Under the pieces are notes generated by a model. That model was not told the DNA's origin, did not search any database, and was given only the letters and a program-made list of their open reading frames with translations. The position numbers and the translations under genes are program-made. Below are positions 1 to 32,045 of a DNA stretch of 64,000 nt, in pieces. The stretch is from Xestospongia bergquistia (taxonomy: Eukaryota; Porifera; Demospongiae; Haplosclerida; Petrosiidae), in NCBI GenBank assembly GCA_963965975.1, contig OZ014417.1, positions 1,116,001-1,180,000 on the forward strand, given 5' to 3'. Each line of letters starts with the position of its first letter. The stretch's first letter is position 1.

Positions 1-2202
1 AAGGATGTAGTCTAGCTGACGAATTTGACGAGGGGAGTGCTGATCGGGGCGGGATGAGAGTGTAGCAACATGTGTCAACGGTTTGTGGTCTGTTAAAAAA
101 TGGAATTCCTGTCCTTCAAGGAAATGTCGAAAATGTTTGATGGACTGGTGAATTGCCAAGAGCTCTTGATCAAAAGTACTGTATCGACGTTCTGTAGGAG
201 TGAGAGTCCTGGAATAATATGATATAGGTTGCCACATACCATCAACATACTGTTGTAAAACGGCACCAATAGTGGTATCGGAAGCGTCAGTTGCTAGAGA
301 TAATGGAGCATCTGGTTTAGGATGGTTGAGTAGTGTAGCTTCGGCTAACACCTCTTTGATTTTGTGAAAAGCTGTAATGGCATCTGGTATCTACTCTAAT
401 TCCTTAGTATTCTTAGTGAGTAACCTATGGAGAGAGGAAAGAACATGGGCACATAATGGTACAAAACAATGATAAAAATTTACAAAACCTAAAAAGTCAC
501 GCAACTTGCGATGAGTGTGAGGTTGTGGATAGTCAATAAGAGTTTGTACTTTCTCAGGTAACGGACGTATACCATGATGATCAACGAGATGTCCAAGAAA
601 GGTGAGTTGTGGAACTCCAAGTTCACACTTGGAGGGGTTAATGACAATACCATGCTCTGTGAATTGTTGTAAGACTGTGCGTAAGTGTTCCTGATGTTCT
701 TCTGGAGTAGCACTGGCAATAAGGACATCATCTATGTATGCGTACGTGTTCGTAACATCGTGAAGAACTTGGTCAATAAATCGCTGAAACGATTGTGCTG
801 AGTTACGTAGTCCGAATGGTATTCGAACAAATTCAAATAGTCCGAACGGGGTCATGATGGCTGTTTTAGGAATGTCACTAGGTTCCACTGGTATCTGATG
901 GTAAGCACGTACTAGATCCAGCTTAGAAAAGATAGTAGAACCATGCAGGTTTGCTGTAAAGTCCTGTATGTGAGGAATGGGGTAGCGGTCTGGGGCTGTC
1001 TTGTTATTCAGGGCACGGTAGTCTCCACATGGGCGCCAGTCACCGGGTTCTTTCTTAGGGACCATATTGAGAGGAGAAGAGGGTCGGATTATTCCTAATT
1101 GCAACATGTGGTCAAATCCCTGATGAGCAATACGCATACGGTCTGGGGATAGACGACGAGGAGAACAATGTACTGGAGGACCTTCAGTAGAGATATGATG
1201 AGTCAAAGTATGCTTAATTGGGGTATTGTAATTATAAGGTTGGATGACTGAGGGAATCTCCTGGAGGAGGGCTTGATAAGTGTTCTGTGGTTGATTAGGC
1301 AGGAGTGTGGGCTGGAGGGAGGGCTGAGTAGAGGTGATCCCATTAACCTTTAAGGAGGTCAAACTGTCTGTGAGACACCTCTTTCTCATGTCCACTAATA
1401 ATCCATAATGTCTTAAGAAGTCTGCACCTAAAATTGGAGTTTTGACTTGTGCTATGATGAAAACCCAATGAAATACTCGACGTAATCCTAAGTCTAAAGT
1501 GAAAGGGCGTCTACCATAGGTAGTGATGGATGTGTTGTTCGCAGCTTGTAGCTGGAGACTATTGGGTTGACGTAGTCGATCGTACTTAGAGGGAGGAATG
1601 ATGCTGACTTCAGCACCTGTATCAATAAGAAAACATAATTTACTTGAAGTGTCTGTAATGTAAAATAGGCGACTAGAGATGAGGCCAGTGACACTTGTCG
1701 CCACTAGTGACTGGCCGGGTCGTTTTCCTGATAGCTGCATGGCTGTCTGCACTTCTTGGCAGCCTCACCAAACTGCTGATGATACCAACAGAGAGTAGGC
1801 TGGGTGGTTGTAGGATGTCGTGATGGAGTGAGTGAACGTGGAATTCCTCGGGAGCGAGACTGGCTTCGTCCACGGTAGGAAGAGTGAAAAAGTTTCTTGA
1901 GATGATCAATCTCTTCCCGAAGTTGAGATAATTCTGATTTGACCTCTGGTAGAATACTAATTGGAGACACAGTGGGTTGAGATGCTGTTGACATGAATTC
2001 AAGTGTAATGGCTTCTACTACCTTGTCTGCTAATTCAGCCAGTTTGGTCAGTGTCATCTTGTCTGTAGAGGCTAGTACCATCCTGACGTTAGGAGGAAGA
2101 CGTTGTATGAAGAGTTCACGAAGGAATGATTGGTTGATAGTAGTGGCTTTGTCACCGAGAAGTTGTTGCATTCGTCTGAGAAGTTGAGATGGTTCACAGT
2201 CA
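1..2202 (-). mobile_element. Ty3/Gypsy LTR retrotransposon fossil, partial (gag and part of pol)
   Basis: Minus-strand retroelement remnant cut by the left window edge and ending near 2,200 against host DNA. The part at 391-1752 shows an aspartic protease with DTGAE and a reverse transcriptase with YIDD and the usual Ty3/Gypsy order (protease before RT). The part from about 1,750 to 2,200 is gag-like with a Cys/His-containing tail. The same family occurs at 54,066-57,747 in the same orientation upstream of the duplicate receptor gene and differs by a few percent by eye. It is treated as a broken, incomplete fossil with few breaks in the visible part. The similarity to the other copy suggests it is recent. 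Confidence 0.9.
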
Positions 2203-2692: not shown

Positions 2693-5600
2693 TGTACTAA
2701 TGTATGTCCATCAGCTAATCAAGATCCTAATGACTTTGAATCTGATATACGTATAGTTACTACTGAGCCTCGTAATGTCACTTTATCATGGACACCTCAT
2801 TCTAATTCAAATTATACAGTACAACATCGATTACAACAAGAGAATCAAGTGTATTCATTATCAGCAGAAGTATGTTGTAAATCACTCTCTTTCTGTCTCC
2901 TTTGTATCCTTTCTCCCAACCTTCTCTCTCTCACACACATTATATCTTTTACAGGTGTCAGGTCACGTTTACACAATAGAAGGTCTCTTACCATTTACGG
3001 ATTATGAAGTCCGAGTTTGTCTGTTCAATGTCAATCCACAAGATTGTGGAGGATGTTTATTATGTTTTCGTACAGCACGAGCACAAGGTAATATAATAAT
3101 ATATATTATTTATACATTGCTTGTTTTGATTTATTATTCCCACGTCCTTCCACATGTGTTTATGTTCTATTCTTTCCTTCAACTATCTGTTTGTTCATAT
3201 TTGTCACTTTACTCTTATAGAAAAACCCAGTCCACCCACCAACATAGAGGCACAATCTTCAGCTCCTCAAACAATTGAAATCATGTGGGATGTTCCTTTA
3301 GTTACAAATGGTCCAATCACTAATTATATTGTGTCTTATACTTCTCAAACAAACGGACAAACACGAAATAGAACAATTGGTAATAATCAAAAAAGACAGA
3401 TCACGCTTTCTTTATCTGATAATATTTTATCGGGTGTAACATATGATGTTATTGTTCAAGCTGTCAATGAATTTGGTACCAGTGACCCATCAGACATTGT
3501 CTCTGTAACTGCATCATCTGCTAGCAGTAAGTAGGACTCTACAAATAATTGTTTTATTCCCGATACTTGTAACACACCTGTACTGGGAACAATTGGCATA
3601 TTTTTACCCTCATGGTTGTACATGTATAAATTCTTTATTTCTATTTTTGTGAATGTAAACATAAACATGTTTTAATAATATTATAAAATACTTCTGTCTT
3701 TAATAATCTATAATGCTCATATCTATTTTAATATGTCTGTGTTCCACTTTTTAGCTGATCCTGGAGTGTTGTTGTATTCAGTTGGGACTAGTATATCATA
3801 TTACAGAATCAATGAATCCTCACTAACTCAAGCTCAATTGCAAAACAAAGAGAGATTATTGATATCGTCTGGAGCTAATGCTTTAGGTATTATAAAATAC
3901 TTTAATTATTAAATAATTTAATTCAAATGTTATAAACATATTAACAGCTATTTATATTAACATTAATCAATATTAACAATATTAACTATTAATATTAACA
4001 GTTATTATATATTTAACAATATTAATATTTCTACATTTTTTGTTTTCAGATATTGACTATCATTATCATCGTAAAGAAATTTATGTTACTGCTAATATTG
4101 GTGGTGGTTCTATAATACGATATTCTGTTAATGTATCAGAAGATAATACTGGTCTCTTAGATCTCACTGTCACAAATACATCAACAATATACAGTGGTCT
4201 TGGTAGTGGTCTAAGTAGTATTACTGTTGACTGGGTTAATAATATACTGTACTGGGTTGTTGTAACAGGTGGTAACTCTCAGGTGAGTGTGTTATCTTAG
4301 TCACAAACTAAAACTATAATTGTAAAAATTGTCTTAACATTATTTGATGATTCTGTTGTTGATGTTGATTGTGAAAACTGAAGAGTAAGTAATGTGATGG
4401 AGTTGCTCAAAGACATTCTCTCACATTACAGAACTCTTAAGCTTGTGAAGAATGTATTGATGTTACCTTTGATACACATAAAATTAAGTTGTTGTATTAG
4501 TATCAAAAATAATGTATAATATTAAAAAGTTCAGATCAATGGTCATTGCAACCAATGAATTTTATTAGGTCTATGTCAAACACTGTTTAACTTCAGTGTC
4601 TGGAAGTCAGTAAATGCTTATTTTTACTATCCTACTACTGCATCATAGTTTTGTTAACTCTCTAGGTGTTAACTTTACTTTTTAAAGTTAATCTTATGAT
4701 GTTTTTAAAATTATTGGTTTTATTCAGATATATTCTGGGTCATTGTCCGGAGACATTACACCACGTCCAATTGGATTGCCCTTCTCTGGTGAGATAAATA
4801 GTTTGACAGTTGATCCAATACACGGGTAAGGCTTTATAACAATAATATTACTGTTCCCTGATAATTTTTTTAGTTATTTCTATTGGGTTTTATTGGGACA
4901 CTATTTGGCTCAAGTTGATCTTTCTATAGTGGAGAATGCTGCCTCCAATATAAACCTTACATCTACTGCTAACTTAATTAATGCAAGCAATGTTGGTTCT
5001 TTTAGTTTAGACTTAGCTGATTCTCAGTTCTTCTATGGGACTGGAACCTACATTTTGTTACAATTATTGAGTATAGAAACTCCATTAAATGAAAGAAATC
5101 TTCTTACCAATATTAACCAGTCAATGACCTCCTTTGGGACATATGCATATATTATAGTTTTCTCTGATAACAATTGGTTCTTAGCTATTCGAAATCTACA
5201 ACTTGATTCTAACTTTAATGGTGGATTATTCAATTTTAATAATCAATTGTTTGATGTCAGAATGTTTCGCAAGTCATTTCAACCATTACCTGGTAAGGAT
5301 CACACGTACATTTGTACAAACATTACACTATATATTTTAATAGTCTTGATGTATTAACAAAGCCATCATAAAGATCACTCCTTAATTCACTACACACACT
5401 AAGTCTAGTCTTTTTTCTGTAACTTTTAACTTCTTCAATGAAGACTTGTTTATGAAAGGACAATTTCCAAGTTTTCAAAGCATCTAGTTTTTAGTTTTAT
5501 ATAATTGTACTGGGTTATATTTCAGCCACACCTACCATTTTTTAATTGTTTAATTTCTGTATACAACAATTAATAATAAGAAATAAATAGACATTGCCTA

Positions 5601-8600
5601 CTTTGATCTATCAATTTTATTAGCTTTTACAATGATGGGTGTAGCTAACTGAGACTCAAAGCTTACTAGCTTGCTCTTCTGATTCCCATCATAATCTTTG
5701 TCTATGTTAACTATGCAAAATTTTAATTTTTTCCATAAATTTAGTATCTTCAAAAAATTAAAAGGTATTTTTATTTGTGGTTTGTTTCTTGTTTAGTGCC
5801 TCCATCTAAGCCCACAAACATTCGTGCTCAACCGACCAATTCAACAGTCACTATACAATGGTCACCTCCAGTGTACTTCAGTGTTATATTTGGTATGAAT
5901 GACATCATATCTATTAATAGTACACTATACTATAAATAGTACAGTACAGAATACAGTTATAATAATAGTATATAACATACTTTTAAAGATGCATTGTTGC
6001 TATTATTAGTAACACTTATTTTGTATAGGTCGAGATGCATACAATAGCTGGGAGTACCAGGTGGACTATCGATTACATGGTTCCTCAGATAGTTTCAAAA
6101 CTTCAATGACTAACTCTACCTCTCTCACCCTCACAAATCTCACAGCTGGTACATTGTATGAGTTTACAGTCACTGCTATTGGACCGGGGGGTAATAAAGT
6201 AACAGATGAAACCTTTGTGTTTAATACTTTGCCAGAAGGTAAAACGTTTTTGGTGAGTCATGGATAGATTCATCTTCTTTCTTTTAGATCAGGCACCTGA
6301 ATTTCTTATTGCTGGTAACGAAGGTATTATCAGATCAGATTATCTTGGTAATAATCCCAGGTACATATCTCGTACTCAGACTGATCAATCCACTGGTAAG
6401 TATGTATAGAATATCATAACTGTATTTAGTAACTGCTACTATTTATAGTATTATTATTGATGACTTCATTCTAAATGCACATGCTGTTTAGTTACTTGCC
6501 ATAATAACATTTATGTTGATTGCTACTATTTATAGAATATTTGCTAAATATAGTAACATTTTTTTATAGATGGGGTCTATAATTCACTATTGGGGATTTA
6601 TTATGTTGTAAGAAAATCAGGAGAGCTTCTTGTTCAAACTGGACAAACTGATGGATCTGCAATGACAAAATTGAGTGGTCTTCAAGATCCCTTTGCTCTT
6701 CAATTGGATTGGGTATCACGTAGACTGTACTGGGTTGAGGTACTATAAATAGATATTATGTACTAAAAATAAAATTATATTCTAAATTAGTAACAGCATA
6801 CACTATAATACATTGTATGCATTTGTCAAATATTATCAATTTTCTTTCTTTATAGTCATCTCAAAAGATTGTGTCTCTTTCAACCGTCAATATTACCTCA
6901 AGTGTTAAAGAAGAATTTGTTGATGAATCTGAAATGATATCTGATTTAGCAGTTGATGGTAAAAATGGGTAAGTTGATTCTAATAACTTATGTTACTAAA
7001 TATAGACTTTCTATTAATTATTAAACCACTTCTGTTTAATTTAGAATGTTATTTTTAGTACAAGATACTTATAGTAACACTACTTAATGGAGTTAGCATA
7101 ATATTGTTATATTTAGTAACAATGCTATTATTATATGTTACTAAATTTATTATCAACTTCTATTTTAAATAGCAAACAATAAATTACATCATTGCTATAT
7201 TTAGTAACATATGTTACCTCAACTCCTAGTGTCCTTTTCTGGATTGTTGGATCAGTCATCAAAGGAAAAACTTTGAATGGTCTCATTCAATTTGATTGTA
7301 TAAATCTTCCCTATTCTCCTAATGCATCAACTATTGATCCTGTTAATAGACGTCTCTACTATATTGTAGTAACTAGCTCCATGGTAACTGTCGGACAGAT
7401 TGGTTATAACACCTTTGATTGTTCAGGAGGGTTAGTGATCTCTTTAGAATTGTTTTATAGTTTAATAACCATATCCATTACTTTCTCTATTTCATCAAAC
7501 TATCTATCCATCCAACCATCTTTATGGCAGTGTCTGGAGTGTCACTATTACAATACTGTACTTTAATGAGAATTTAATACTATACTCCAGACCCTAAACT
7601 TTAAACATTAGAACCTAAATGTATTATTTTCGCATTAAAGTATGGCATTACCAACACCAGACACATTGATTCTTTCTTTATTTTGTATTTAGACCATCCT
7701 CTTTGCATGGTATAACAAAATGAATACCTTTTTTGTTTTTCTCATCTATTCATCCATCCATTCATCCTTCTATGTATCAATCCATTTATTTCTTTTATAG
7801 ACATATCACTCGTAATGTCTCTCAGTTAGTCAACTTAACATCTGCTTTAGTCTCATTATCATATGCTGCTAATACACTCTATATTACTCATTATTTTGTA
7901 ACTCAACAATCTTCTCCCACTGTTGTCTACACAATCTCTGCTGATATTCATAATATAAACTCCAACCACACTTTAGCTCTGGGTGTGGTCAGAGCTAATC
8001 CCACGTCTGACAGTTCACAACAATTTAGAGCAATATCAATTATTTTACCTGAGCTACAACCTCTACCAGGTATGTTCTTGATTCTGCATTTATCATATTG
8101 GATAACTAATGGATGAATAAATGGATATATGGACTAAAGTTTTTATTTTTCAAATCATTTATTTACTATTTTATCTGTCCATTATAATATTTCATTCATC
8201 CATCCATTCATTAGTCTATCTCTCTAACCATTCCTCCAATTATATTGTCTTATACATTATACTTTGTATTTTATAGATGGTCTTACAGCTATCATGACTG
8301 GTGACATAACTATTCTGGCTCCTCCCCCTCCAGGATACCCGAATCTTAACAATGATACATCTAATACAACATTTATTGATATAGTTTGGGACTCATCAAA
8401 CTTTATGTTTTCTCCTGTTATCTATCAAGTTTCATTAGTTCTTTCGCGATTTGGTACTAATGTTCCTGTAATGTCTCCTCGTACGGTATGTGCTGTGTGT
8501 AATATATTGTCAATTATTGTATATGTACATTATATATCTCTCCCTCTCCCTTCCCCCCCCTCTCTCTCTCTCTCCCTCTCCCTCCCCCTCCCCCTTCCTC

Positions 8601-9080
8601 TCTCTCTCTCTCCCTCCCTCTCCCTTTCTCCTATACAGGTATTTCAAAACAATGCACAGATTTCAGATCAGATGTTCTCAACAACAGTCAATGCTACAGT
8701 GACAGGGTACTCTTATTGGACCAGCTCTTCATCTGTTACTAATGTCTTTGTATCTCCTCTAGCTTGTAAGTTTTGTGACTATATTCTAAAAATATGCAAA
8801 AGTGTTTAGTTATATTTTTAAAATAATTATTTTCTTTATTAGTACCAAAACAAGTTAAAAATGTTCGTGTCTACACATATTCTCCCTTAAGAAATACAGT
8901 TGCTATAACTGGACTTGTTGTCTGGGATGGATTGTCTACTGTAGATGCAGGAGGTGGGGTCGAAAACTACTATGTAAATGTTTATGATGTTACTAATGAG
9001 AAGAAACCACTGACATCTGAGAATGTACTTGTAAGTTAAACAGACACACATATATATCAGCATATTGAATTATCTCCCTC

Positions 9081-9126
<46 letters not shown>

Positions 9127-9382
9127 AGGCACCAAATGTCCACAGGTGGGATGGTCCCCCATTTGGTGTTAAAGGAAGTGACACTGAATTTTCTCTCACA
9201 ATCCAGGGAAATGAACACAATATACTCTATTATGTATTAAAGTTTAATCAAATATATGAAGTAGAGGTTAGTATGTTAGTGAGTGACAATATCTGTGAAT
9301 TTGTCTTTCTATCTATTTATCTAATACATCAATCAATCCATTTCAATATGTCTATTAATACGTTCAATATTAATGATATATA

Positions 9383-9428
<46 letters not shown>

Positions 9429-12400
9429 ATAAAATTTAGGTTTTTGCTAGTAATGCAGCTGGTAATGGAACTTCTTCACCAACTGTGACCTTTTATACTA
9501 ACAGTATGTGTATTATATTGTGTGTTTATTGTATACCAAATCAATCTGTAGCAACCACGCCCCCTCTTGAAGTACTAACTTCTTCATCTAAAGGTGGATC
9601 AATTGAAGGTGAACGTGGGAATGTCACATTCTCTCGTGTCACTCCCCCTATTACATTGGACACATTGGATAGGACTGTCTACTATTATAACTCATTAGAA
9701 CATGCTGTTTATAAGCAAACATTAGATATTAATAGTCAAGATGAGGTTAGTAGAACTATCCTTCTCTTTGTCTATTCAATTTATTTTATAGTTGTTTGTT
9801 AAATTAGAGTCTAATTTTAATCCACTTGGATTTGGATATGATTGGATTGCACAGACATTATACATTGTTGGTCGAACTACTCAAGGGAAAACTAATATAT
9901 TGAGAGTATTCAGATTGTATCCTGATGGTATTACAAGAATATTTGGTGGTAATGATGATGTTCCTTTTGATGTTGAAATGTCTGTCATCATTAATCCATT
10001 TAATGGGTAAGAACAATTTTTAAACCATAAATGTGTGGATATGTTCATATACAGTTAAATAGAACAAAAAAAATGATTGGACAATAACATGTTCGTACAT
10101 TTATTTGTTCTTACAGACTACTTCATTGGACAGAGTACTCACCAAGTACTCCTTCGTCACGACTATACCAGTTAAACCTGACCAACAACATGATTACATC
10201 ACTCATCTCCTCCTCACGTAAGAGAGAAATTGATATCTCTTCTCTTGAACCAACTGGAGCTCTTGTTTGGGATACTGTTACTGAGAGATTATGGTTAAGT
10301 GATCGATCAAGTGGTGATATTGTATCATGTGACTTAAATGGGAGTGGTCAGTTAGAGTGTCAACTTGAAGTGAACAATACATTATTACCAAATATGGACA
10401 ATGGTAAGATATATATGTACATGTACATGTTGTCAGTCCAACCATCTGTCCATTTCTCCATCTATTGATCCATTTATATATTACAATATCTGCTAGGTTT
10501 ACCAGCAGGATCATTAACACTTGATAAAGATCGTATTTATTGGACACAAAGTGATGATAATGTGATCTACTATGTCTTAAGAAATGATAGAGACAATTTA
10601 TTAACTCTACCTCTACCTAGTAATAATACTGTAATACTTGCTACTAGTCCAGGTTTACAACCATATCCACAAACTAGTGAGTAATGATAACCACTGTATA
10701 TGAATATTGTTGACTTTGTTACTCTCTGTCTCTCTCTCTCTCCAGACCTAAATACATATGGTTTCAATGCTAATGATGATTATTGTCTATCTCCTGATTT
10801 AAATGACTCTGGTGATCGTCCAGTTCCTATTTTTATCAACATTACTGATACACCTATAGCTATCAGATGGGAAGTACCCAAATTACCAGATAATTGTGCT
10901 GGTAGAGTTGTATCATCACTACCTCTAACATATCGTGTTGATCTAAGAATCACTACTCATCATTCTGTTCCTGACTACCCTGTGGTAAGTCTAATTCATT
11001 CTTGTTGTTGTTGTTGGTACATCCTTTTTCATCAGTGCTTATTATGTGATTTTGTGTTTTTTTCAGACTCTCTTCAAACCAGAGGTCATCTTAACAAATT
11101 TACTACCTTATACTGAATATATTGTTAAAGTAGAAGCACGTAACCAGTTTACATATGTAGGTACGGGTGGTAATTTATTTGGAGATAGTAGAGAAAATAG
11201 AACACTTGAAGGAGGTAAATTAAAATATCATCATCTATCATCATGTATCATCATTGATCATCATTTATCATCATCATTGATCGTCATTTATCATCATCAT
11301 TGATCATCATTTATCATCATGTGTCATCATGTATCATCATTTATCATCATCTATCATTGTGTAAAATCTATCATCATTTATCATCATGTATCATCATTAT
11401 CACCATCTGTCATCATCTATCATCATTTATCATCATGTATCATCATGTATCATCATTTATCATCATGTATCATGTTCTATCATCATGTATCATGATGATA
11501 GATGATGATAGATGATGATACATGATGATAAATGATTGATCATGATACATGATGATAAATGATGATACATGATGATACATGATGATACTTGATAAATGAT
11601 GATAGATGATGACAGATGGTGATATATGATGATAATGATGATAGATGATGATACTATCATCATCTATCATCATGTATCATTTACACTTACAGTCAAACAT
11701 GTACTCATATATAATATATACATGTTATATTTATATCTCAAAATGTTTATTTTCAAGTTATAAAATATGTCTGTTCTTTATTTGTAGTACCTGATCCAGT
11801 AACTGGACTCAAATCTCTTGTCTATGGACCTGATAATATTTTCCTTTATTGGGATAATCTGAATGAGACGCAGTTAAGAGGCAATGTAACAAATCAGAAC
11901 TTCTTTGCTATCCTAAACAATACCATTACTGAACAGACAAGAAAGAATAACTTTAATTTTAATAAGACTGGACTCTCACCTAATACCAGCTATAGTCTTA
12001 GTGTTCTCGCTAATAATGGTGTTCTTACTTCTAGTAAGGCCTCTACCATTACTAATACAACATGGCCTTTCCCACCTCAATTGAGGATTATAACAAACAC
12101 GAATGTTTCTTTGGTTGCTATGGTAATTCTAGAGGAACATCATGATGTCTTGCAGACGATTGAGGCATACATTATGGAGGATCAGGTATGTATAAGGGGG
12201 TGTGGTTTACATGTACTCATGTCATGTCCATTTTGCATTTATCTATCTATTGTTATATTCTATTTATAGCCCAACCAACGTAGTGAAAACTCACATGATC
12301 TCTCCTCAGTGTCTGACTATCCTCGTCAACTTAACTTCACATTCACTAATCTCTCTGCCTACACTAATTATAGCTTGTACATTCGATGGACCTACAAGTC

Positions 12401-15400
12401 TGTAGAGTACAATGGAATGGAATTTACAGCTGGAGTCTTTGAGAGTTTAAGTATCACTGAATTAACAAGACGTAAGATTTACTCAATTATTTAATATACT
12501 ATACATTTAGTATTTAGTATAAAATCAATTTAATATTTATAATAATTATATTCATTTATTCTATCTTTTGCCTGTGCTATTATGTATCTCTACTATCTTG
12601 TGTACATTCTTTGTAAAGGACTGTCATTAGTCATTCCTATATTTACTTCATTTTGTAGAAAATGCTTTCAACAGTTCAAAGTATAACATATTATTTGATA
12701 ATAAATGACATCTTTTCTTTATTTAGTACCACCTACTGTACAACCAGTATCAAAGAGAGTCATTGGATTACTTAATGAATCTGTTACTATTTCATTTACT
12801 ATCACTAATGATTTCCCAAAAGTGAAATTATATAACATACAATGGCAATTCAAGTCATTGGATTCTGAGACATTTAATTCCATTAACTCTGAGCGTCTTT
12901 CTGAAGATCATCTTTCTCTAGCAATCTCCAATGTTCAGTTGAGTAATAGAGGATTGTATAAAATGATAGCACAAAATGAAGCAGGCATTAGTGAAGCAAC
13001 AGTTGTTCTGGATGTATATGGTAAGTCTAAAACTGTAGCATTAATTTAATATATCCTCAATGATTTTAGTTACAGCTGCTTTATGGAACAATACTGGAGG
13101 GACTGTAATAAAAATAAAAGGACAAAATGTTGTGTTCAACTGTACTGCTGATGGTCTTCCACGACCTACTATCGTATGGAGGAGAAATGGTCAACTTTTA
13201 TTGAACACTAGTAGATTAAAAATTATAACATCAGAACAGACCAATAGTTTTCGTTCAAACATTATCCCTGAAGTTCTACAACATACAAGTATGCTAGAAA
13301 TTACAGACTTAAAAGGAAATGATAATGGTAGCTATTCTTGTCGAGCTGATAATGAAGCTAATTTAGGAGTTGTATTAACAACACCATTTACATTACAAGT
13401 AATAGAATGTAAGTGATTAACTGTTGTTAAATATTTATTATTAAAGATTTCTTTTAGCTCCACCAACCAATTATTGTTTGAGTTCTCCATGTGGTAAAAA
13501 TGGTAAATGTCATAGTTTGAGTAATGGATATTTATGCGATTGTAATGATGGATACACTGATATCAATTGTGAACAAGGTAAGTTATGAATGATGTTAATA
13601 TCAAGTTTATTTGTTTTAATACAGTTGTAGTGGTATCAGTTCCACCACAAATTACACAACCTCCTAAAAGTACTTCAGGGAATCTCTACTCCACTACTAA
13701 CCTCACATGTAAAGCTACTGGTTCTCCTATTCCTACTATTCTATGGTATAAAGATGATGTGTTAATTCCTAATGACAATAGTGATCCCTCTGTGTTGTTA
13801 TTCTCTGAATTGGATTTAAGTGATCGAGGATTTTACCACTGTGAAGCTAGAAGTATAATAAATGGAAAAAATGTATTTACAGTGTCTTCAAGAGTACTTC
13901 TAAATATTACAGGTATGAAATATTTTATTTTATGATGTTCACTATTTATTTTAATCCAGATGTTGTTCAGTATGAAGCTAAAATAGAACTACCAGATGAC
14001 TTTTACGAGAGAAGTAATTTGAGTATATCTGACAGGATCTCTGATCTTATTTACAAGGTAGTTGATGTATCACAAATGTTATAATCATTTTATTTATTAT
14101 TTAGAGTAACAATTATCTTACTGGTAGTCAACTGAGCAATACCTCAAACACCTCATTTTTCTTCATTCAAATTTTTAATGCTAGTAACTTGAAGTCAGTA
14201 TATCTAATTTTATGCTAGAGATTATATCAGACAATATTTAGTTATACTGCACAAGTCCATACTATTCCTATTGTTATTACTTTGTTAACAAAGAATGGAG
14301 CTTCTGAAAAGCTCAGGGATGGAGTACAACATCAAATGGCTATGCTAGGCAGACAACTTAGTGTCAATATTTCAGTAGCTGAAGTAGACAGATTTGGTAA
14401 AACAAATTTAAAGTTATATGTGTTTATTACTTTGTTTTTTAAGATGGTTGTCCTCCTGACAATACTGTTATACCATCACATTCTGGCAAGCAAGATCTTG
14501 AACTTATTCTTTTCTGGCCTGAAACTAATATTGGAGGAGAAGCTGTAGTGAGCTGTCCTTGTGGAAATGGGAGTTCAGGAGGACAAATATTAGAAGCTAA
14601 TCGATATTGTGGAGGAGACTTTATCAGAGGTGCTGAATGGTCTAAAGGAAATATAGCAGCTTGTAATTTCAGTGACTTAGCAAGAGAAATATGTCGACTA
14701 AAAAATGTTTGTTCTTTGGATGCAAATACAGATAAGTAATTATTATTTCCCTCTTTAGCTTCCTGTACCTGAGAGAATAGTACGGTTGGAGAATCTTACA
14801 AGTAACAGTGATGTTTTAGGATCAACTGAAGTAACAGCAAGTGTGAGTGTACTAGTGACAGCTACTGAAGGTGTATCTGGTAATATTACAGTAAGGAATT
14901 CTTTTTATCAACATGACAGTACCTGTTTTTATATCACCTTTAAAGTTAACTACAACATTTTTAGAAGTTGTTGACAACATATTAGATGTCAATCAAGATA
15001 CATTACAAACCAGTCAAGAAACCTCTAACACATCAGCTAAGTTAGTTTGTTATTTCAAGTAAATACTAGTACATTTTTTGTAGGATATTGGAAGCTATTG
15101 AATCAGTTGTGGAGAATATACCACTTACTAATACATCAAAGCCTGTTGTAATTTCTCAAAAGTCATTTGCTGTATCTGTGCAACAAGTAGACATTGAAGA
15201 ATTTAAACAATCTGGTCAAATGTTCAGTGTAAATTTTGGAGACTTTTCTAATAATAATCAAAGCCTTAATTCGAATGATCTGACATTTGGAGGATCTAAT
15301 CAGCATTCAACTGCATCTATCAATCTACCCAGAAATTTACTAAATGGACTTCCAAACATCAGTAATAATACTAGAATCACTCATTCAGTATTTATCACTG

Positions 15401-17224
15401 ACTCCTTATTCCTGAGGAGAGTAGACAACTTCCAAGAGGTTGGCAGTATCATCATCTCAGCTGCTGTAGTAGGGACAGATACCATTAGGGGACTTAATCC
15501 TCCTGTGGGTCTTAGTTTCATGATCAATCCAGTGAGTATAGGACTTTCTATGTGTTTATTAGTTGCTTTCTTAACTTTAGAATATAAATGGCTCATCTCC
15601 TCAGTGTTCATTTTGGAATCAATCTTTAGATGGTAAATGTGAATTATATATAATAATTTTAATTGTTACAATAGATGGATTTGGAGATTGGTCAAGTAAA
15701 GGATGTCGTAATATTACCAACAATGAAAGTGAAGTTATCTGTGAATGTAATCATCTCACAAGCTTTGCTATATTATTGGTAACAATTGTTTGTTTAATGA
15801 TATAAATATTTGTTTGAAATTCAGGATGTTTCTGTGACAGTTGAACCAACAGAGAGAACAGGATTGACATTGTTCTTGGATGCTGTGACTTACATTGGTA
15901 TCATTGTATCCCTATTTTGCCTGATTATAACTATTATCTCATATCTCTCTAACAAGTAAAATACTATAGTGTTAATAAGTTGTTATGTTTTGTTTTTACA
16001 GGAAACTTCGTACTTCTGATCATGGACAACTTCTCCTTAATTTATGTTTTGCTTTAATGGGTCTTTACATTACATTTATTTTTGCTGTTCACAGTCGAGA
16101 TGTTCCAGTTCTCTGTGCTGTTACAGGAGCAGTGTTACAATATTTTTTCCTGGTGACATTCATGCTAATGGCTGCAGAGGCTATCAATCTGTACATGAAT
16201 TTAGTGATTATTCTTGGTCAGAAAATTAGCCATTTTGTTTTGAAGGCTACTATTGCATCTTGGAGTAAGTACTGATAATGTTGTTATTATTTAATTCTTT
16301 TTTTTTCTGTATTAGTAATTCCATTCTTTATTGTGTTGTTCTGCTTTGCTCCCAATTACAAAAACTACTTGAGTGATCATTTGTGAGTAAAATTAAAGTT
16401 TAATTTCAAGTGTTATTACATTTATTACTTGCAGTTGTCGTGCTTTTAATGTTCCATATTATGTTGGTATGGTGGTACCATTTTTGATCATCTATATCTT
16501 TAATTGGGTAGTGTTTTTCATCATATTTGTTTCTCTCATCCAAAGAAGCTTCCAGTCGAAGGATGTTAAATCGAAAAATGATAAAGGGAAAAAATCTTTT
16601 GTTTGTCAACAGCTTGTTATAATTACAACATTGTCAATTTTATTTGGTTTGGGATGGGGTATTGGATTGTTTGCTACTCAAGATATCCATACCAATAAGA
16701 CAGTACAAGACTTGTTTGCCGCATTGTTTGTGATCTTGACTGCTTTTCATGGTCTTTTTATTTTCATAATGCACTGTCTTCGTTCAAAGGAAGTAAGATA
16801 CACTTGGAAACAATGGGTTTTTATTGTTACGGGCAAAGATATCAGTCGATTTTCTTCCTCAACATTTTCTCGTAAGCATAAAAAGCAATATGATATTGGA
16901 GTAGCTAATTCTGGAAATAATTCTTTGGGAAAATCCAGTTATGACAGTAATGTATATGTAACTCTTCAATCTTATAAACAAAAGCCTCTAAGCTCTCCTG
17001 TAGATGTCTTAATTGTAGAGAATAGAGAGGTGGAGATGGAAAGTGGTGCATTATCTGAGACAACTATCACTAAGTCATTTCCTGATGATAAAAATGAAAA
17101 GAAAGAACTGCAAAGAAAAGAAAATGGTACATTATCTGAGACGACCTTCACCAAGTCATTTCCTGATCATGATGATAAGAATAAAAAGGAAGAACTGCAA
17201 AGAGAAGAAGAGGAACAGAATTAA
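2693..17224 (+). CDS. Chimeric receptor: ROS1/Sevenless-like ectodomain joined to an adhesion GPCR (5' partial)
   Basis: I could chain 44 exons from 2693 to the stop at 17224. All have GT/AG borders, all phases agree and none has an internal stop, giving 8,997 coding bases or 2,998 residues. Predicted order: FN3 x2 (about 1-205), YWTD propeller 1 (206-499), FN3 (500-601), propeller 2 (602-888), FN3 x2 (889-1130), propeller 3 (1131-1422), FN3s (1423-1751), Ig (1752-1849), Ig (1850-1962), EGF (1963-2002), Ig (2003-2098), SEA-like (2099-2217), HormR-like (2218-2305), GAIN/GPS (2306-2582), 7TM plus cytoplasmic tail (2583-2998). The signal-peptide exon should lie left of the window, because the duplicate gene has it at 52,667. 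The role is inferred to be a cell-surface adhesion and signalling receptor. The main uncertainty is whether exons 27 and 28 (12,471 to 12,727) are really spliced together. A stop at 12,494 would end a shorter secreted form. Confidence 0.75.
7528..7668. mobile_element. MITE-like element in an intron
   Basis: About 140 bp inside the intron 7431-7800. The ends are imperfect inverted repeats: CAGTGTCTGG on the left and CCAGACACATTG on the right. Inner inverted matches (GTACTTTAATG against CATTAAAGTATGG) extend the terminal repeats to roughly 50 bp. It has no coding capacity. A relative with similar inner sequence lies at 50,838-50,952. Target-site duplications were not resolved. Confidence 0.55.
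8536..8634. repeat. Polypyrimidine CT/CCT-rich low-complexity tract
   Basis: Almost pure C/T on the plus strand, filling most of the intron 8486-8638 and running up to the acceptor CCTATACAG. It is simple sequence and probably length-variable. Confidence 0.85.
9073..9122. repeat. (CT)n microsatellite
   Basis: About 20 uninterrupted CT units at the 3' end of the intron 9031-9128, serving as the polypyrimidine tract of the next acceptor. Confidence 0.9.
9384..9424. repeat. (ATT)n microsatellite
   Basis: About 13 units of ATT within the intron 9267-9439. It is simple repeat DNA with no other feature. Confidence 0.9.
11223..11690. repeat. ATC/GAT-rich repeat forming a large imperfect palindrome
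   Basis: The intron 11215-11787 is mostly short units of the type TATCATCATG/TATCATCATT on the plus strand to about 11,490. The complementary orientation (GATGATAGATGATGATACAT type) follows to about 11,655, then a short return to the first orientation. The two halves can pair into a hairpin with arms of roughly 170 bp or more, centred near 11,490-11,500. Open frames in it on both strands are artefacts of the triplet-like repeat. Confidence 0.85.
12472..12726 (+). other. Junction intron between the ROS-like and adhesion-GPCR halves, with an Ig-exon relic
   Basis: 255-bp intron with donor CGTAAGAT and acceptor TTATTTAG, phase 1 on both sides. From about 12,655 its sequence resembles the last bases of the upstream Ig exon and the following intron in copies C (26,715-26,777) and E (44,375-44,436), for example CAGTTCAAAGTATAACATAT against AGTTCAAGGTACTATATAT. 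The donor of that relic is changed, so it no longer looks spliceable. This suggests the adhesion-GPCR part was cut from a longer gene with more Ig exons and now borrows the upstream exons. An AATAAA near 12,700 could allow early polyadenylation. Confidence 0.65.
12727..14706 (+). other. Copy A: Ig-Ig-EGF-Ig, SEA-like and HormR-like exons
   Basis: Exons 12727-13020 (Ig), 13070-13408 (Ig with C-T-A-D-G ... YSCRADNE), 13458-13577 (EGF, six cysteines, CDCNDGYT), 13625-13912 (Ig, YHCEAR), 13960-14057, 14105-14197 and 14231-14396 (together a SEA-like segment starting VVQYEAKIELPDDFY), and 14444-14706 (HormR-like, with CPCGNGSSGG and AEWSKGNIAACNFSDLA). The SEA call is tentative. The HormR call rests on the Cys/Trp/Gly pattern and its position just before the GAIN domain, as in many adhesion GPCRs. 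Copies C and E give the same exon borders. Confidence 0.7.
14759..15778 (+). other. Copy A: GAIN domain and GPS autoproteolysis motif
   Basis: Exons 14759-14890, 14946-15040, 15084-15531, 15581-15632 and 15675-15778. The last two carry a full GPS: CSFW, then W and GC, then CECNHLTSFAILL. By the family rule, self-cleavage would occur between L and T of HLTS, leaving a TSFAILL-type tethered agonist on the membrane part. The donor of the first exon is taken as GTAAGG at 14,891. An alternative donor further upstream with a different acceptor is possible but gives a weaker join. Confidence 0.85.
15825..17224 (+). other. Copy A: seven-transmembrane domain and cytoplasmic tail (type A tail)
   Basis: Exons 15825-15955 (TM1), 16002-16264 (TM2-TM3), 16316-16382 (TM4) and 16435-17224 (TM5-TM7 and tail). 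Hydrophobic segments include YIGIIVSLFCLIITIISYL, FFLVTFMLMAAEAINLYMNL, LSILFGLGWGIGLFAT (TM6) and LFAALFVILTAFHGLFIFI (TM7), typical of family B2 receptors. The tail of about 150 residues ends in two copies of a charged 26-27 residue unit (TLSETT.TKSFPD...KKEELQR). Copy C has three such units. Confidence 0.9.
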
Positions 17225-18354: not shown

Positions 18355-18718
18355 ATGTCTTTCTTTGTTGTCATCTTAGTTCTCTCTTTGTTGTCTACAT
18401 TAGTAACAGTACAAGGTAATGTAAATATTAACATTATTATAACTGTACTATATCTTTATTAGGTCCTCCACTGATAACACCATCAGGATCAGTGATAGTA
18501 TTACATGGAAATGATCTATTAGTTAAATGTGAAGCTAGTGGTAATATTCTCTCCTATCAGTGGTTAGACAATAATGGAGTTATTATCACTACTTCAAATA
18601 CAAGTCCTCTACTATTGACTAACTAATGTGACTCAGTCTGACAGTGGAAAATATACCTGCAAAGTAATCTATACCAACTCAACAACTGAGAACTCAAGTA
18701 TTCTTATAACAGTTAAAG
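18355..18718 (+). pseudogene. Relic B0: signal-peptide exon plus broken Ig exon
   Basis: The exon 18355-18415 encodes MSFFVVILVLSLLSTLVTVQ, a clear signal peptide, with a GT donor (phase 1). The next exon, 18463-18718, matches the Ig exon of copies C (22656-22910) and E (33063-33320). It has a small net deletion near 18,620 that turns ...LLLNITNVTQ into a frame-shifted ...LLLTN followed by a stop. No following in-frame exon was found. It is likely a dead 5' fragment, although a short secreted peptide cannot be excluded. Confidence 0.65.
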
Positions 18719-18983
18719 GTTATTATAACTAGTTATAACTAAATGTATACCAATTAAACATAAATAAACAAAGTTAGATAATAAAAGTGGGTGGGACTAC
18801 ATTTTTGACATAGATATATGTACTAGTTGAAGTAGATGCTATGACTCTTATTAAAGGTAATATAATAATAGAATTTATAGCAATATATAGATCTAATTAG
18901 CAAGTGCTGGCCCTTAATACTTGTTTTTATTTTTATCTTGTTAGATATAAATTCTCTTGTGATATTTTATTGATAAAAAGAGG

Positions 18984-20923
18984 ATGAAGATACCTCTGTT
19001 CTTATCAGTTGTATTAATAATAATACTGCCATTAGCTACTGAACAATCATCATGTCTCCTCCTTGCAGTAAATGGTATATAGAGAAAGTTGACGGTTCTA
19101 CTTCTTGATGCATATTCAGGAGCAGGATCATATGATCCTACTGTATCATCAGATCAGTATACTTGTATTGCTCAAGGAGCAACTAGAGATACTTATTGTA
19201 GAGTATCTATTATAGCTACATTTACTCCTAACAATGGACAATCTCAACAAACACAACACTTTCAGTTAGAGTGTTCAAGTGGTACATGGAGTGCAGTAAC
19301 TGATGATGGTTTTGGTACTCCTCCCTCAAATCCAATGCTAAGAACTGACTGTTTTAATTGTGTACCTGAAAGTCTTTAAGTAAGTTCATAATACATATTT
19401 GAATATATTGTAAATATTCCTTTTAATTAGCTTGTAATTCTGCTTGTAACTATGGATCAGGAAGATGCCTATCAAATAGTCCTCTAGTCTGTTGTCCTTA
19501 CTTTGGTCTTGATAATATGTGTACTAAATTATGTTTAATGATATTAATATTTCTTTGAAATTCAGGATGTGTCTGTGACAGTTGAACCAACAGAGAGAAC
19601 AGGATTGACATTGTTCTTGGATGCTGTAACTTATATTGATATCATTGTATCCCTGATTTGTATGACAATAACTGTTGTCTCCTATCTCTCTAACAAGTAA
19701 AATATTATTATAGTTACAAATTTGTTGATAAGTGTGTCATGCTTTGTTCTTATAGGAAACTTTGTACTTCTGATCATGGACAACTTCTCCTTAATTTATG
19801 TTTTGCTTTAATGGGTCTTTATGTTACATTTATTTTTGCTGTTCACAGTCGAGATGTTCCAGGTCTCTGTGCTGTTACAGGAGCAGTGTTACAATATTTT
19901 TTCCTGGTGACATTCATGGTGATGGCTGCAGAGGCTATCAATCTGTACATGAATTTAGTGATTGTTCTTGGTAGGAAAATTCGTCACTTTGTTTTGAAGG
20001 CTACCATTTATCTTGGAGTGAGTCATCATCAAAATGATTCACTAATATCAAGATGTATTATTTTCTAGTTACTCCATTCTTTATAGTATTGTTCTGCTTT
20101 GCTCCCAACTACAAAAACTACTTGAGTGATCATTTGTAAGTTCCTTGTTATAAAATGTGATTACATTCTATATTTTTATAGTTGTCGAGCCTTCAATGTA
20201 CCATATTATATTGGTACAATAATTCCATTTCTGATCATCTACATTTTTAATTGGGTAGTGTTTTTTATTATTGTTGTTTCTCTTATACAAAAAAGTCTCC
20301 AGTCTGATTCTAAATCACAGAAAGACAAAGGCAAAAAATCTTTCTTTTATCAACAACTCATTATAGTTACGACATTGTCAATTTTGTTTGGTTTGGGATG
20401 GGGTATTGGATTGTTTGCTACTCAAGATATCCATACCAATAAGACAATACGAGACTTGTTTGCTGCATTGTTTGTGATCTTGACTGCTTTTCATGGTTTG
20501 TTCATTTTCATAATGCACTGTCTTCGTTCAAAGGAAGTAAGAAACACTTGGAAACAATGGGTTTTTAATGTCACAGGCAAAGACATCAGTCAATTTTCTT
20601 CATCAACACTTCCTCGTAAACACCAGAAACGATATCATATTGGAACAGATAATTCTGGAGTACCTCTTAAATCTTTTTCTTCAGGAAAATCCACTTATGA
20701 TGATACAACCTTAAAGAAACAATCAAGATCTGGAGAAAGTGAAACTCTTCAGTCTTTGGAACAAACATCTCAGAGTACTTCTGTAGATGTCTTGACTATA
20801 GAGAATAGAGAAGTGAAGATAGAAAGTGATGCATTTGCTGTGACAACATTTACTAAGTCTTTTCTTGTTGATGAAGTGGATGAAAAAGAAAAATTGCAAA
20901 GAGAAGAGGAGGAACAGAATTAA
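18984..20923 (+). pseudogene. Copy B: internally deleted adhesion-GPCR pseudogene (type B tail)
   Basis: Starts like copies C and E (MKIPLFLSVVLIIILPLAT...) but meets an in-frame TAG near 19,080. The remaining first-exon segment (19,089-19,379) is open and lacks the usual donor region. After the Cys-rich exon at about 19,432-19,530, the sequence jumps straight into the intron before TM1. EGF, Ig, HormR, GAIN and GPS are therefore absent. The 7TM exons remain at 19566-19696, about 19757-20017, 20069-20138 and 20182-20923, but the TM2-TM3 exon has lost one base near its 3' end (ATTTATCTTGGAG in place of ATTTCATCTTGGAG), which breaks the phase. The tail is the long type shared with copies D and E. 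Confidence 0.75.
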
Positions 20924-20998
20924 TAGAAAAATTAGTCCATCAAGTAAAGTTTTAAGCTTTTGTTATATTTCAGTAGTACTTTTATTATATATATATAG

Positions 20999-22910: not shown

Positions 22911-24283
22911 GTTAGTATTGTAGTTACAAAGTAAAGAAATGATGTAAATTAAAGGAGTGGATTAGAAACAAGCAATAAGAGCTATTCTCATTTTTATCTT
23001 GGTTTTATGGACATTAATTTAATAATAAATAAAGCATATTAAAATAACTAGTTTTTTGTCTTCGATGCTCATTTCCAATTCATTTCCTTTTTCTTTGTCT
23101 TAAATTCTACCACATTAAGATTTCAATTAAATTAACAATAAAAGTGAACTATCATATAAAGCAATTTGTATAATATAGCATTAACAGTAGTAACCATTGC
23201 CCAGTCTTAACGACTACTATAGTGTGTACATTAAGTATCATATTTATTTGTATCTTTTCACTGTGTAGTATATTTCCTAATATGGCCTCATATACACATA
23301 TTGTATAATAACTATGAATAGCCTTAAAATTTTATATTGTACTAAATATCAAAGCACATTGTATTGTCCTTAAATATGTCATTATTAGAAAGGTCATGCA
23401 TGAAAGTCAGAATTATAGTAGCAGATTATATTACTATATATACTGCTACTACTAGTGATATCTGTTATTACAACTAACATATTGTAAGAACATAGGAATG
23501 CCAATAGTGTACACATGTTGTTATTAATCAAATTTTGGTTACCATAGTTTTCCCAATGTGATGTACATGCAGTCTAATTGAGTTATTCACAAAGCCAAAT
23601 TATAGTAACTAAATATATAAAGCCAAAACATAACCCAAACTGAAAGTAAAACCCAATAATAGAGGCCATGACCAAGAGATGGATACTATTTCAACAAGGC
23701 ATCTGTAAATAACCAGTAGTCACATACAAGCAAGGCTCTAGTACAGTAAAACATGCTTGATTACATTAATACACTCTATAAACTGTATACCTATCTCACA
23801 AACTTACATAACACTAACTTTAGAATATATTTTCTTGTTAAAACAAACACTCTAATAATAACATTGTAATACTACAATAATGCTAAGTATTTTCATGATT
23901 ATACAATATGGCTATTCTTAGTTTATGAGGGAGTGACTGTCAAGGGCAGAGACAAATTTTCAAAGTAGGGGAGGGTGACTCAGTACAATTAAGCTGCCAC
24001 AAAGTAACACATTGGCACTATATGTAGCTATTTATAGTTAATAATAATATTGACTATTTGTTTACAGGGTAGGTATGAATATTACACATACAGAACCTTT
24101 AAGGATTGCACAGGTGCACTAAAGTTTAAAATTAAAATCTAGAGGGCTACAGGCCCCAGCTCCAAGCCTTGTCTATACCCTTTCAGTGACAGTGTGAACT
24201 GTCTTAAAAATATATTCCCAATCATTAAGTAGATTCATGACTAAGTACACTTAAAAATGAAAATCACTTATTATCATACATAG
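22911..24283. other. Long intron of copy C without recognisable genes
   Basis: 1.37-kb AT-rich intron (donor GTTAGT, acceptor CATACATAG, phase 1). A piece near 23,190-23,330 (AACCATTGCCCAGTCTTAA...) is repeated near 33,690-33,840 in the corresponding intron of copy E. No open frame or structural RNA was recognised. Confidence 0.55.
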
Positions 24284-25615
24284 ATGGCTGGAGTACATCA
24301 GCAAGTTCTCATATTATTGGAGCACTACCTATTCAACTAAAGCAAGGTCTTACACTTGTTATTACTACTGCAGAAAACAAACCAGTTAATTTCACAATCA
24401 AAAACTTAACAGGAACTATATCAAGTGGCTCAGTTACTTCCAATATACCAACAAATGTCACTTTGAATTTAAGTAATACTGTTGATAGTAGGACAGACCG
24501 AGAGAAAGGTATCATAGTGTCTACAGGATCACGTAGCAAAATATCAGTCTTTGTTGCTGTTAGTGGTAGTGATACAACAGGTGTCTATCAGAGTTATCCT
24601 ACCTGGGGATATCCTGTCAATGAATATGTTTACTATGCTATTTCCACTGGTAGTAATACTGTTGGCTCATTTAGTACTCTCCTCCTTGTATCTGCCAACA
24701 ATGATACTATTATTACTATAACTCCTACAGTTAATATAACTATCCCTCATGATCTGAGTCCCACTGGTATTGATATCATGATAACAAGTGGAAACTCTGT
24801 AACTATTCAACTAGACTATCTCCAAACATTTTTAATTGACTCAGCAAATGATTTATCAGGCTCAAAAGTCATTTCAAACAAACCAATTGCTGTTTACTCA
24901 GGACACACATGTGGCGAAGTACCAACTCCAGGAACATTTGCTTGTGACTTTCTTGGTGAGCAAATACCTCCATCAGCATCTTGGGGTAATTCCTTCCTTG
25001 TAAGTCCTTTCTCAACTCGTAAGTCAGGCTATCTGTTGAAGTTTGTCAGTTCACAACATAATACCAACATCAATATATCTTGTCAATCAAACATCACATA
25101 TGAGATATCATCACCACAGGAAGACAGTACAGCATCACAACTGATCACTGGTCGAAAGATTTGTCATATTTATGCAAATAATCCTATTCTTGTAGCACAG
25201 TTTTCTTTGGGACAAGGGCTTGATACAGAAGGCGAAAATTATATTCCTGGTGATCCTGGTGTAGTGATTGTTCCTCCCTTTAAGCATTATGTGACCAGTA
25301 CTGTATTTCCTGCTATCACTTTGTTGTTATCTACAGAATACATGAACTTGGCTGTTATTTCATCAAACTTTGATTCTTCTCAAGTACTATTAAATGGTGT
25401 ATCACTTTGGTCTGAAACATGGACTACAATTAATAGTGATGATGGTAGTAGTGTAGTTGGTTATGTATTAACAAATTATTCTCTTTCAAGTGATATTAAC
25501 AATGTCAGTTATCAAGATTCAAGTGGCAGACTCTGTCCACTAATATTTGGTTCAACCTATTCTGTTGGTTACACATATACTGGAGGACTAAACATGATTC
25601 CCTATGGATATGAAG
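24284..25615 (+). other. IgGFc-binding-protein N-terminal-type domain (single 1,332-bp exon)
   Basis: 444-residue exon with the family pattern: GSRSKISVFV, then YPTWGYPVNEYVYYA, LLLVSANNDTIITITPT, NKPIAVYSGHTCGEVP, CDFLGEQIPPSASWGNSFLV and FSLGQGLDTEG. This resembles the N-terminal domain of IgG-Fc-binding protein (FCGBP), an adhesive extracellular module. It is complete in copy C. In copy E only the 3' third survives (about 33,926-34,254). Phase 1 on both sides makes it a skippable cassette. Confidence 0.75.
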
Positions 25616-27711: not shown

Positions 27712-27749
27712 TACACAGCCTCCTAAAAATACTTTTAGGAGGCTGTGTA
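27712..27749. repeat. Perfect 17-bp inverted repeat at a deletion junction
   Basis: The left arm (starting TACACAGCCTCC) and the right arm (GGAGGCTGTGTA at its end) pair perfectly over 17 bp around a 4-base loop ATAC. The left arm belongs to the start of the third Ig exon (ITQPPK). The right arm is its reverse complement and runs directly into HormR-exon sequence. It looks like snap-back synthesis during repair of a deletion of about 0.9 kb. Confidence 0.85.
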
Positions 27750-31203: not shown

Positions 31204-31960
31204 ATGTCTCTCTCTGTTGTCATCTCTCTCTGCTGTCTACATTAGTAACATCACAAGGTAATACAAATATTAACATTATTATAACTGCACTATATCTTTA
31301 CTAAGTCCTCCAGTGATAACACCATCACGATCAGTGATAGTATTACGTGGCAATAATCTATTAGTTAAATGTGAATATAAAAATATAAATAAATATAGTT
31401 ATATATAAATAGTATTCCATTTCTGATCATCTACATTTTTAATTGGGTAGTGTTTTTTATTATTATTGTTTCTCTTATACGAAAGAGTCTCCAGTCTGAT
31501 TCTAAATCAAAAAAAAAACAAAAGCAAAAAATCTTTCTTTTATCAACAGCTTATTATAGTTACAACATTGTCAATTCTGTTTGGTTTGGGATGGGGTATT
31601 GGGCTGTTTGCTACTCAAGATATCCATACCAATAAGATAGTACGAGACTTGTTCGCTGCATTGTTTGTGATCTTGACTGCTTTTCATGGTCTGTTATTTT
31701 CATAATTCACTGTCTTCGTTCAAAGGAAGTAAGAAACACTTGGAAACAATGGGTTTTTGATGTCACAGGCAAAGATATCAGTCAATTTTTTTCTTCACTT
31801 CCTCCTTAACATTAGAAATGTTATCATATTGGAACAGATAGTTCTGGAGTACCTCTTAAACCTTTCTCTTCAGGATATGGAGAAAGTGAAACTCTTCAAT
31901 CTTGTGAACAAACAGCTCAGAGTACTCCTGTTTATTTTGCATGTGACCTTACCTACTTGC
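31204..31960 (+). pseudogene. Relic D: fused ends of an adhesion-GPCR gene
   Basis: Begins with a degraded version of the signal-peptide exon of B0 (ATGTCTCTCTCTGTTGTC..., frame lost). It continues into about 70 bp of the Ig exon at about 31,305 and then jumps at about 31,410 into the last 7TM exon (SIPFLIIYIFNWVVFF) with a type B tail. Frame changes occur in the basic loop (poly-A stretch near 31,510) and near 31,700. It is a dead remnant, with most of the gene deleted. Confidence 0.8.
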
Positions 31961-32045
31961 TGTATCAGCAGTTTAGTTATTATTAACTGAATAATTATTT
32001 AACTTTTCAGCAAAGTTTTTTAGTACTTTTTATTCGAGCAGAGTG

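Follow-up and report, generated by a model that had tools for sequence, protein, structure and literature searches.

The 64 kb of DNA analyzed here (hereafter the window; 33.5% GC, no Ns) contains a gene, gene A, that is likely to be a chimeric receptor gene, in which an ectodomain of the ROS1/Sevenless type was fused by rearrangement to an adhesion GPCR (aGPCR). Gene A is an adhesion GPCR with a new head, and its sequence points to an adhesion-GPCR architecture that is new and probably functional; we are aware of a ROS1-type head in a tyrosine kinase only. Were the fusion expressed, it would place a G-protein receptor under the control of this head and show directly how exon shuffling recombines the inputs and outputs of animal receptors. 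Paralogs of the parents, a breakpoint near the end of an exon and matching intron phase all lie within 64 kb, so that the event is captured at this one locus, and gene A also has a bearing on the relative age of ROS1-type ectodomains and the ROS kinase. The window as a whole is a tandem cluster of related aGPCR genes and fragments, interspersed with retroelement DNA and two copies of the ROS1-type ectodomain (table 1). Its gene content, short introns and AT-richness suggest that it probably comes from a sponge.

We modeled gene A with a small gene finder and hand curation, partly against gene C (one of two paralogous aGPCR genes within the window, genes B and C), which gave 44 exons at 2,693–17,224 of the forward strand and 2,990 residues, 1,748 of them upstream of the junction between the two halves and 1,242 downstream. 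All 43 introns have GT-AG boundaries (43/43), the exons keep a single frame and the sole stop codon is terminal (17,222–17,224). The gene finder forbids stops, so the open frame of gene A is partly open by construction; independent backing for the model comes from its domain content and from its agreement with gene C and with the second copy of the ROS-type head (copy 2). Gene-finder penalties of 9, 11, 13 and 15 gave 43, 41, 35 and 35 exons, respectively, and a first, low-penalty model that was over-split into 92 exons was discarded; in the final, hand-curated model the acceptor of exon 29 was shifted from 13,076 to 13,070, which is also an AG and is the acceptor common to gene C. The first-pass annotation had placed a ROS1/Sevenless-type ectodomain in phase ahead of an adhesion GPCR, and this is borne out by the exon model, the domain content and alignments to PDB chains. 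The rebuilt model likewise has the 27 and 17 exons counted earlier and the same junction intron (255 bp, phase 1), and all 44 exons run in frame to the final stop as had been claimed, with the total length revised from 2,998 to 2,990 residues and the upstream part from 1,751 to 1,748. Neither a start codon nor a signal peptide for gene A was found within the window, and the model begins at an acceptor. Scans of viral contigs and genome contigs with pieces of gene A returned no relatives. An ATC-rich palindrome, its many inverted arms 62–104 nt long, makes up most of intron 25 (11,215–11,787).

Table 1. Positions in the window of the features of gene A, of the second copy of its head and of upstream retroelement DNA.
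Feature	Positions	Strand	Basis and remarks
LTR retroelement remnant upstream of copy 1 of the head	1–2202	-	Abuts the ROS-like unit at 2,195–2,202
Gene A exons 1–27, ROS1-type ectodomain	2693–12471	+	Exon model, Pfam and PDB matches; FN3x2-propeller A-FN3-propeller B-FN3x2-propeller C-FN3x3
FN3-1 and FN3-2, exons 1–3	2693–3526	+	Pfam fn3 33.3 and 50.7 bits; alignment to 9pwq_A
Propeller A, exons 4–7	3755–5292	+	LRP4 chain E=4e-8; ROS-family chain 9oyz_B E=6.6e-7; no Pfam match
FN3-3, exons 8–9	5797–6238	+	Pfam fn3 42.8 bits; alignments to ROS-family and Sevenless chains over the FN3/propeller boundary
Propeller B, exons 10–14	6288–8069	+	ROS-family chain and LRP6 matches; Pfam Ldl_recept_b 13.5 bits against a cut-off of 21
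FN3-4 and FN3-5, exons 15–19	8277–9503	+	Mainly by position; FN3-5 fn3 18.7 bits against a cut-off of 25; FN3-4 without Pfam match
Propeller C, exons 20–23	9552–10676	+	LRP6/VLDLR matches over 220–240 residues, E 3e-6 to 5e-5
FN3-6, FN3-7 and FN3-8, exons 24–27	10746–12471	+	Pfam fn3 29.0 bits; 30.8 bits with 2 stretches
Junction intron 27, phase 1	12472–12726	+	Paralog homology begins inside, at 12,661–12,670
Probable remnant: 3' end of a lost Ig exon with its donor	12661–12680	+	Alignment to genes B and C; now within intron 27
Gene A exons 28–44, aGPCR half	12727–17224	+	Ig, Ig, EGF-like, Ig, SEA-like (label of the first-pass annotation), HRM-like, GAIN/GPS, 7TM, cytoplasmic tail; 1,242 aa
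Exon 40, GPS motif HL/T	15675–15778	+	CNHLT/SFAILLDV from residue 2,564; expected cut L/T; Pfam GPS 61.9 bits
Candidate signal-peptide exon of copy 2	52667–52738	+	24 residues; donor GAG/GTAAGA, score 7.5; phase 0 into 59,562
Copy 2 of the ROS-type head	59053–64000	+	98.3% identity; exons 1–12 complete; continues past the window end

For comparison with Pfam, the head of gene A was split into ten segments (seven FN3 and three propeller). The fn3 family passes its cut-off in five of the seven FN3 segments (FN3-1, FN3-2, FN3-3, FN3-6 and the FN3-7/-8 piece), and no Pfam propeller family does so in the propeller segments (0/3); the identity of these predicted propellers rests on PDB matches to LRP4, LRP6, VLDLR and ROS-family chains. 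The resulting module order is like that of ROS1 (FN3x2-P-FN3-P-FN3x2-P-FN3n, P denoting a propeller). ROS1 and Sevenless have four FN3s after the last propeller whereas gene A has three, no separate Cys-rich CATCH domain is seen in gene A, and the head is followed by an aGPCR instead of one transmembrane segment and a kinase. The available text on ROS1/Sevenless counts nine FN3 domains and three propellers (PMC11743138).

The N-terminal part of the head resembles ROS1 and Sevenless in sequence as well as in order. In a search of PDB sequences, residues 27–751 of gene A are collinear with ROS1/Sevenless chains, and FN3-FN3-propeller-FN3-propeller of gene A is homologous and collinear with the ROS1/Sevenless ectodomain. 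With residues 1–499 as the query, 193 distinct PDB sequences match, and among the best 60 of these 193, six align in a single stretch across FN3 and propeller, namely human ROS1 (9pwq_A, 9pvp_A, 10gh_A and 10ft_A, all four under the name "Proto-oncogene tyrosine-protein kinase ROS"), Sevenless (9bfp_A) and 9oyz_B. Residues 27–367 of gene A align to 95–410 of human ROS1 (9pwq_A, E=2.4e-15), and residues 27–388 to 122–457 of 9oyz_B (E=2.1e-18); the latter is labeled only "Tyrosine-protein kinase receptor" in the PDB, and the parallel between its coordinates and those of ROS1 leads us to take it as a ROS orthologue. The query of residues 205–902 gives 57 rows, headed by 9oyz_B (residues 281–751 to 355–819, E=2.1e-18); two Sevenless rows among them span propeller B as well as FN3-3, and a weak match to DCC (E=0.025) starts within propeller A; FN3-3 of gene A has the run R.A...W.Y.V in common with 9oyz_B. 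The full 1,748-residue query matches 88 PDB sequences, and the best 60 of these 88 are led by FN3 proteins (receptor phosphatases, titin, Dscam) and LRPs. These 60 include two Sevenless rows (E=7.7e-9 and 1.1e-6, residues 493–779 to 694–978) but no chain named ROS, and the ROS1 matches are those obtained from the shorter queries.

In the C-terminal half of the head, propeller C and FN3-6 to FN3-8 are found, FN3-5 is weak, FN3-4 is without a match and three FN3s stand at the end. ROS and Sevenless are absent from the PDB rows for this half (0/16 for query 887–1748 and 0/16 for query 1001–1548), and since neither matches there, we describe this half as predicted to be ROS1-like by module type and order only. 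Sevenless binds the GPCR BOSS through its second to third FN3, according to the available text of the same source (PMC11743138), and this BOSS-binding part falls within the region collinear with residues 27–751 of gene A.

Downstream of the junction, the Pfam families above cut-off are Ig (three stretches), GPS (PF01825, 61.9 bits) and 7tm_2 (PF00002, 87.9 bits), the last spanning profile positions 4–250 of 250. These make the Ig, GPS and 7TM parts of the previously proposed order (Ig-Ig-EGF-Ig-SEA-like-HormR-GAIN/GPS-7TM) firm; its EGF and HRM parts fall below cut-off (19.7 vs. 21.5 and 15.7 vs. 26.2, respectively), and no SEA family was reported by Pfam in the GPCR half. Gene A has the marks of an adhesion GPCR (B2), that is, 7tm_2 and a GPS with HL/T before the 7TM, and TSFAILLDV is its predicted tethered agonist. 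Because aGPCR exons stand in place of the single transmembrane helix and tyrosine kinase, gene A falls outside the RTK family.

The paralogs within the window bear on how this half came to lie behind the head. By self-comparison, gene C (44,376–48,841) is 90.7% identical to the 3' half of gene A, and gene B (26,719–30,409) is 91.2% and 96.3% identical to it in two pieces, homology to both genes beginning at 12,670 in this comparison. Gene C has the same exons as exons 28–44 of gene A, all matching in phase (17/17), and gene B has the same exons apart from a deleted middle. In local alignments, homology to gene A extends upstream as far as 12,661 for gene C and 12,670 for gene B. What lies just before the breakpoint in gene C is the end of an Ig exon (44,063–44,386, Pfam Ig match), with a further Ig exon at 43,391–43,651 and a third between the two, read by eye. 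From these alignments, a lost Ig exon seems to have left its last bases and its donor in intron 27 of gene A, and since an Ig exon ends at the breakpoint in genes B and C, gene A would be the derived form, a B/C-like gene minus its 5' part. Where genes B and C have more Ig exons upstream, gene A has the ROS1-type head. Lenient alignment gave a longer tract of homology reaching upstream of 12,661, which was rejected after comparison with 300 shuffles under six settings: the score of the tract was reached by 155, 120, 74, 92 and 102 of 300 shuffles in five settings, with one mild exception (13/300) under a stricter mismatch penalty and a larger target.

In the scenario that we favor, a rearrangement in the tandem aGPCR cluster would have deleted the N-terminal part of an aGPCR together with its Ig exons as far as the final bases of one of them, and the remaining aGPCR part would have been set behind a gene for a ROS1-type ectodomain. 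The phase-1 donor of exon 27 and the phase-1 acceptor of exon 28 would keep the frame, and the predicted transcript would encode a receptor of ~3,000 residues. The ROS1-type head could then bind a ligand or a partner on a neighboring cell, and the signal might be passed via the Ig/EGF stalk, as force or conformational change, to an autocleaving GAIN domain (HL/T); GAIN would in turn expose the tethered agonist TSFAILLDV, which would activate the 7TM and a G protein. The GAIN and tethered-agonist steps follow established aGPCR biology, of which the modules and the GPS motif are the parts observed in gene A.

The introns of gene A differ in length on either side of the junction, with medians of 124.5 bp upstream (n=26) and 47.5 bp downstream (n=16) and 255 bp at the junction itself. 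We read this contrast as the trace of two parents; a difference so sharp would also suit two neighboring transcription units, a reading that we consider unlikely, in which a ROS-like gene ends in intron 27 (yielding a secreted or truncated ectodomain) and the 5'-truncated aGPCR half has its own start. Translation continued past the donor of exon 27 would run through eight codons to a stop (by eye) and an in-phase start at 12,582 leads into a hydrophobic N-terminus, as such an arrangement would have it; however, the donor and acceptor of intron 27 are normal and match in phase, and the 3' half is constrained though it is without the N-terminal part of its paralogs. A scan of intron 27 yielded two ATGs and three in-phase combinations of start and donor, the donors scoring 1.07, -0.56 and 1.77 as against 2.71–8.06 for the 43 donors of the gene, and none of the combinations passes a preset signal-peptide test that 20 of 1000 shuffled introns pass. 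The idea that the 3' half has a signal peptide of its own, raised in the first-pass annotation as an argument against the fusion, thus has little support, all three donors scoring below 2.71, and within intron 27 the scan weakens the case for a separate start.

Between genes A and C (~1,210 codons), dS is 0.145, dN 0.062 and omega 0.425 (Fisher p=4.8e-11). Changes assigned to the A branch where genes B and C agree comprise 18 synonymous and 20 non-synonymous (omega 0.33, Fisher p=0.0013), counted over exons 28–29 and 36–44 only (gene B being without part of the middle) and excluding 20 three-state codons; by part, the tail alone gives p=0.0007 and the Ig exons alone p=0.67. Judging from these counts, the 3' half of gene A is under purifying selection on its own branch, and part of this constraint may predate the fusion. 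Having lost the native 5' part, the 3' half can probably be made only with the upstream unit, such that constraint on it would favor a working fusion. For the ROS-like head, comparison of copy 1 with copy 2 over 731 codons gives seven synonymous and 11 non-synonymous differences (omega 0.50, p=0.17), and substitutions number 18/2,193 in exons and 28/2,075 in introns (p=0.10); constraint on the ROS-like half is hinted at by these figures and is not significant.

With dS between the two copies of the head only 0.013, gene A could be seen as a young, decaying pseudogene fusion that is intact for want of time. Its neighbor gene B, at a dS of 0.055, appears to carry a frame-breaking deletion, and the region upstream of gene A has a deletion relative to copy 2; against these stand the omega of 0.33 on the A branch and an open model of 2,990 codons with no stop or frameshift, and we regard decay as distinctly improbable. 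It is more improbable again that a ROS-like gene and an aGPCR gene were mis-joined by the assembly of a repetitive cluster, for although the window is full of near-identical duplicates and paralog homology ends where the two halves join, the 3' half is a paralog in its own right and not a misplaced copy of gene B or C (dS to C 0.145; dS to B 0.055 in exons 36–44 and 0.12 in exons 28–29), the lack of Ns and the resolved array of ~120 63-bp units suggest long reads, and the matching phase and clean intron would have to be coincidence.

The 12 exons of copy 2 that are complete within the window are all open (12/12), with length identical to copy 1, and from its phase we infer that the candidate signal-peptide exon upstream belongs to copy 2. 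The matching first exon of gene A would lie to the left of the window. The copies differ in their upstream DNA: a stretch matching 57,195–59,052 of copy 2 is deleted upstream of copy 1, and within the retroelement remnant there, 1–1079 and 1648–2202 are 96.6–96.7% identical to parts of 55,536–57,194, and the extra piece at 1,080–1,647 is lacking in copy 2. The would-be intron 1 of copy 2 contains an LTR-type retroelement with an RT/RNase H match (54063–57748, minus strand), whose terminal repeats at 54,063 and 57,551 are 96.5% identical; the label "LTR" is our own. An open frame with a signal-peptide-like start (MQIFQSVLLLIVIVVSTTDAQ) and no Pfam match lies at 50223–50459 on the minus strand.

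A regular-expression search of the six frames of the window found no kinase catalytic motifs. The available text of a study of tyrosine kinase evolution places Sev-specific kinase motifs at the emergence of bilaterians and regards InsR/Sev fibronectin ectodomains as older (PMC8662651). On that account we do not adopt the view that a kinase output was swapped in gene A; the ROS1-type ectodomain may predate its kinase. We further entertain, as a possibility with the odds against it, that ROS1-type ectodomains predate their joining to the ROS kinase and serve as aGPCR sensing heads in this lineage, in which case copy 2 would lead into a second aGPCR past the window, making a small receptor family, as opposed to a one-off accident, and a cis counterpart of the Sevenless–BOSS pairing, in which a ROS ectodomain meets a GPCR.

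Among described receptors, the aGPCRs of the sponge Amphimedon carry GPS, HRM, Ig, EGF and fn3 domains according to a figure legend (PMC4302439). GPS, Ig and fn3 also occur in gene A, as do EGF-like and HRM-like parts below the Pfam cut-offs, whereas no propeller or ROS1-like array is named for Amphimedon in the available part of that source (PMC4302439); an incomplete model of such a gene may underlie one of the Amphimedon aGPCRs. Choanoflagellates and sponges have GPCR-tyrosine kinases, in which a kinase is joined to a 7TM (PMC12716839, as far as its available text describes them). These and gene A both mix parts of GPCRs and kinase receptors by gene fusion; however, the kinase of the former lies behind the 7TM (PMC12716839), whereas in gene A an RTK-type ectodomain lies before it. 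Our literature search, whose coverage left most subscription journals outside, met no ROS1-type FN3/propeller array ahead of an aGPCR and no paper combining "adhesion GPCR" with "YWTD".

Upstream, gene B has an IgGFc-binding frame, and gene C a signal-peptide frame and a Ser/Thr-rich repeat frame. The frame of gene B (24241–25635) is open and matches the IgGFc-binding domain (PF17517, E=7.4e-48), a module that, to our knowledge, has no precedent in adhesion GPCRs. At 27684–27760, gene B is without the stretch matching ~13,676–14,543 of gene A; read by eye, this deletion appears to break the frame, and gene B may be a recent pseudogene. Upstream of the Ig exons of gene C, 8.8 kb (34345–43152) are dominated by 63-bp repeats in ~120 copies, in which 2,936 codons are open in one frame that is Ser/Thr-rich (1,019 S, 590 T), possibly a mucin-like aGPCR stalk of great length. 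A 7TM fragment that stands alone between genes B and C (31399–31987) is 92–93% identical to copies at 20,222 and 48,183 and 84% identical to genes A and B. A rearranged small unit, gene D (18361–20937), has a signal-peptide-like start and an Ig, followed by the Cys-containing N-terminal part of the cluster aGPCRs, which leads directly into the 7TM part.
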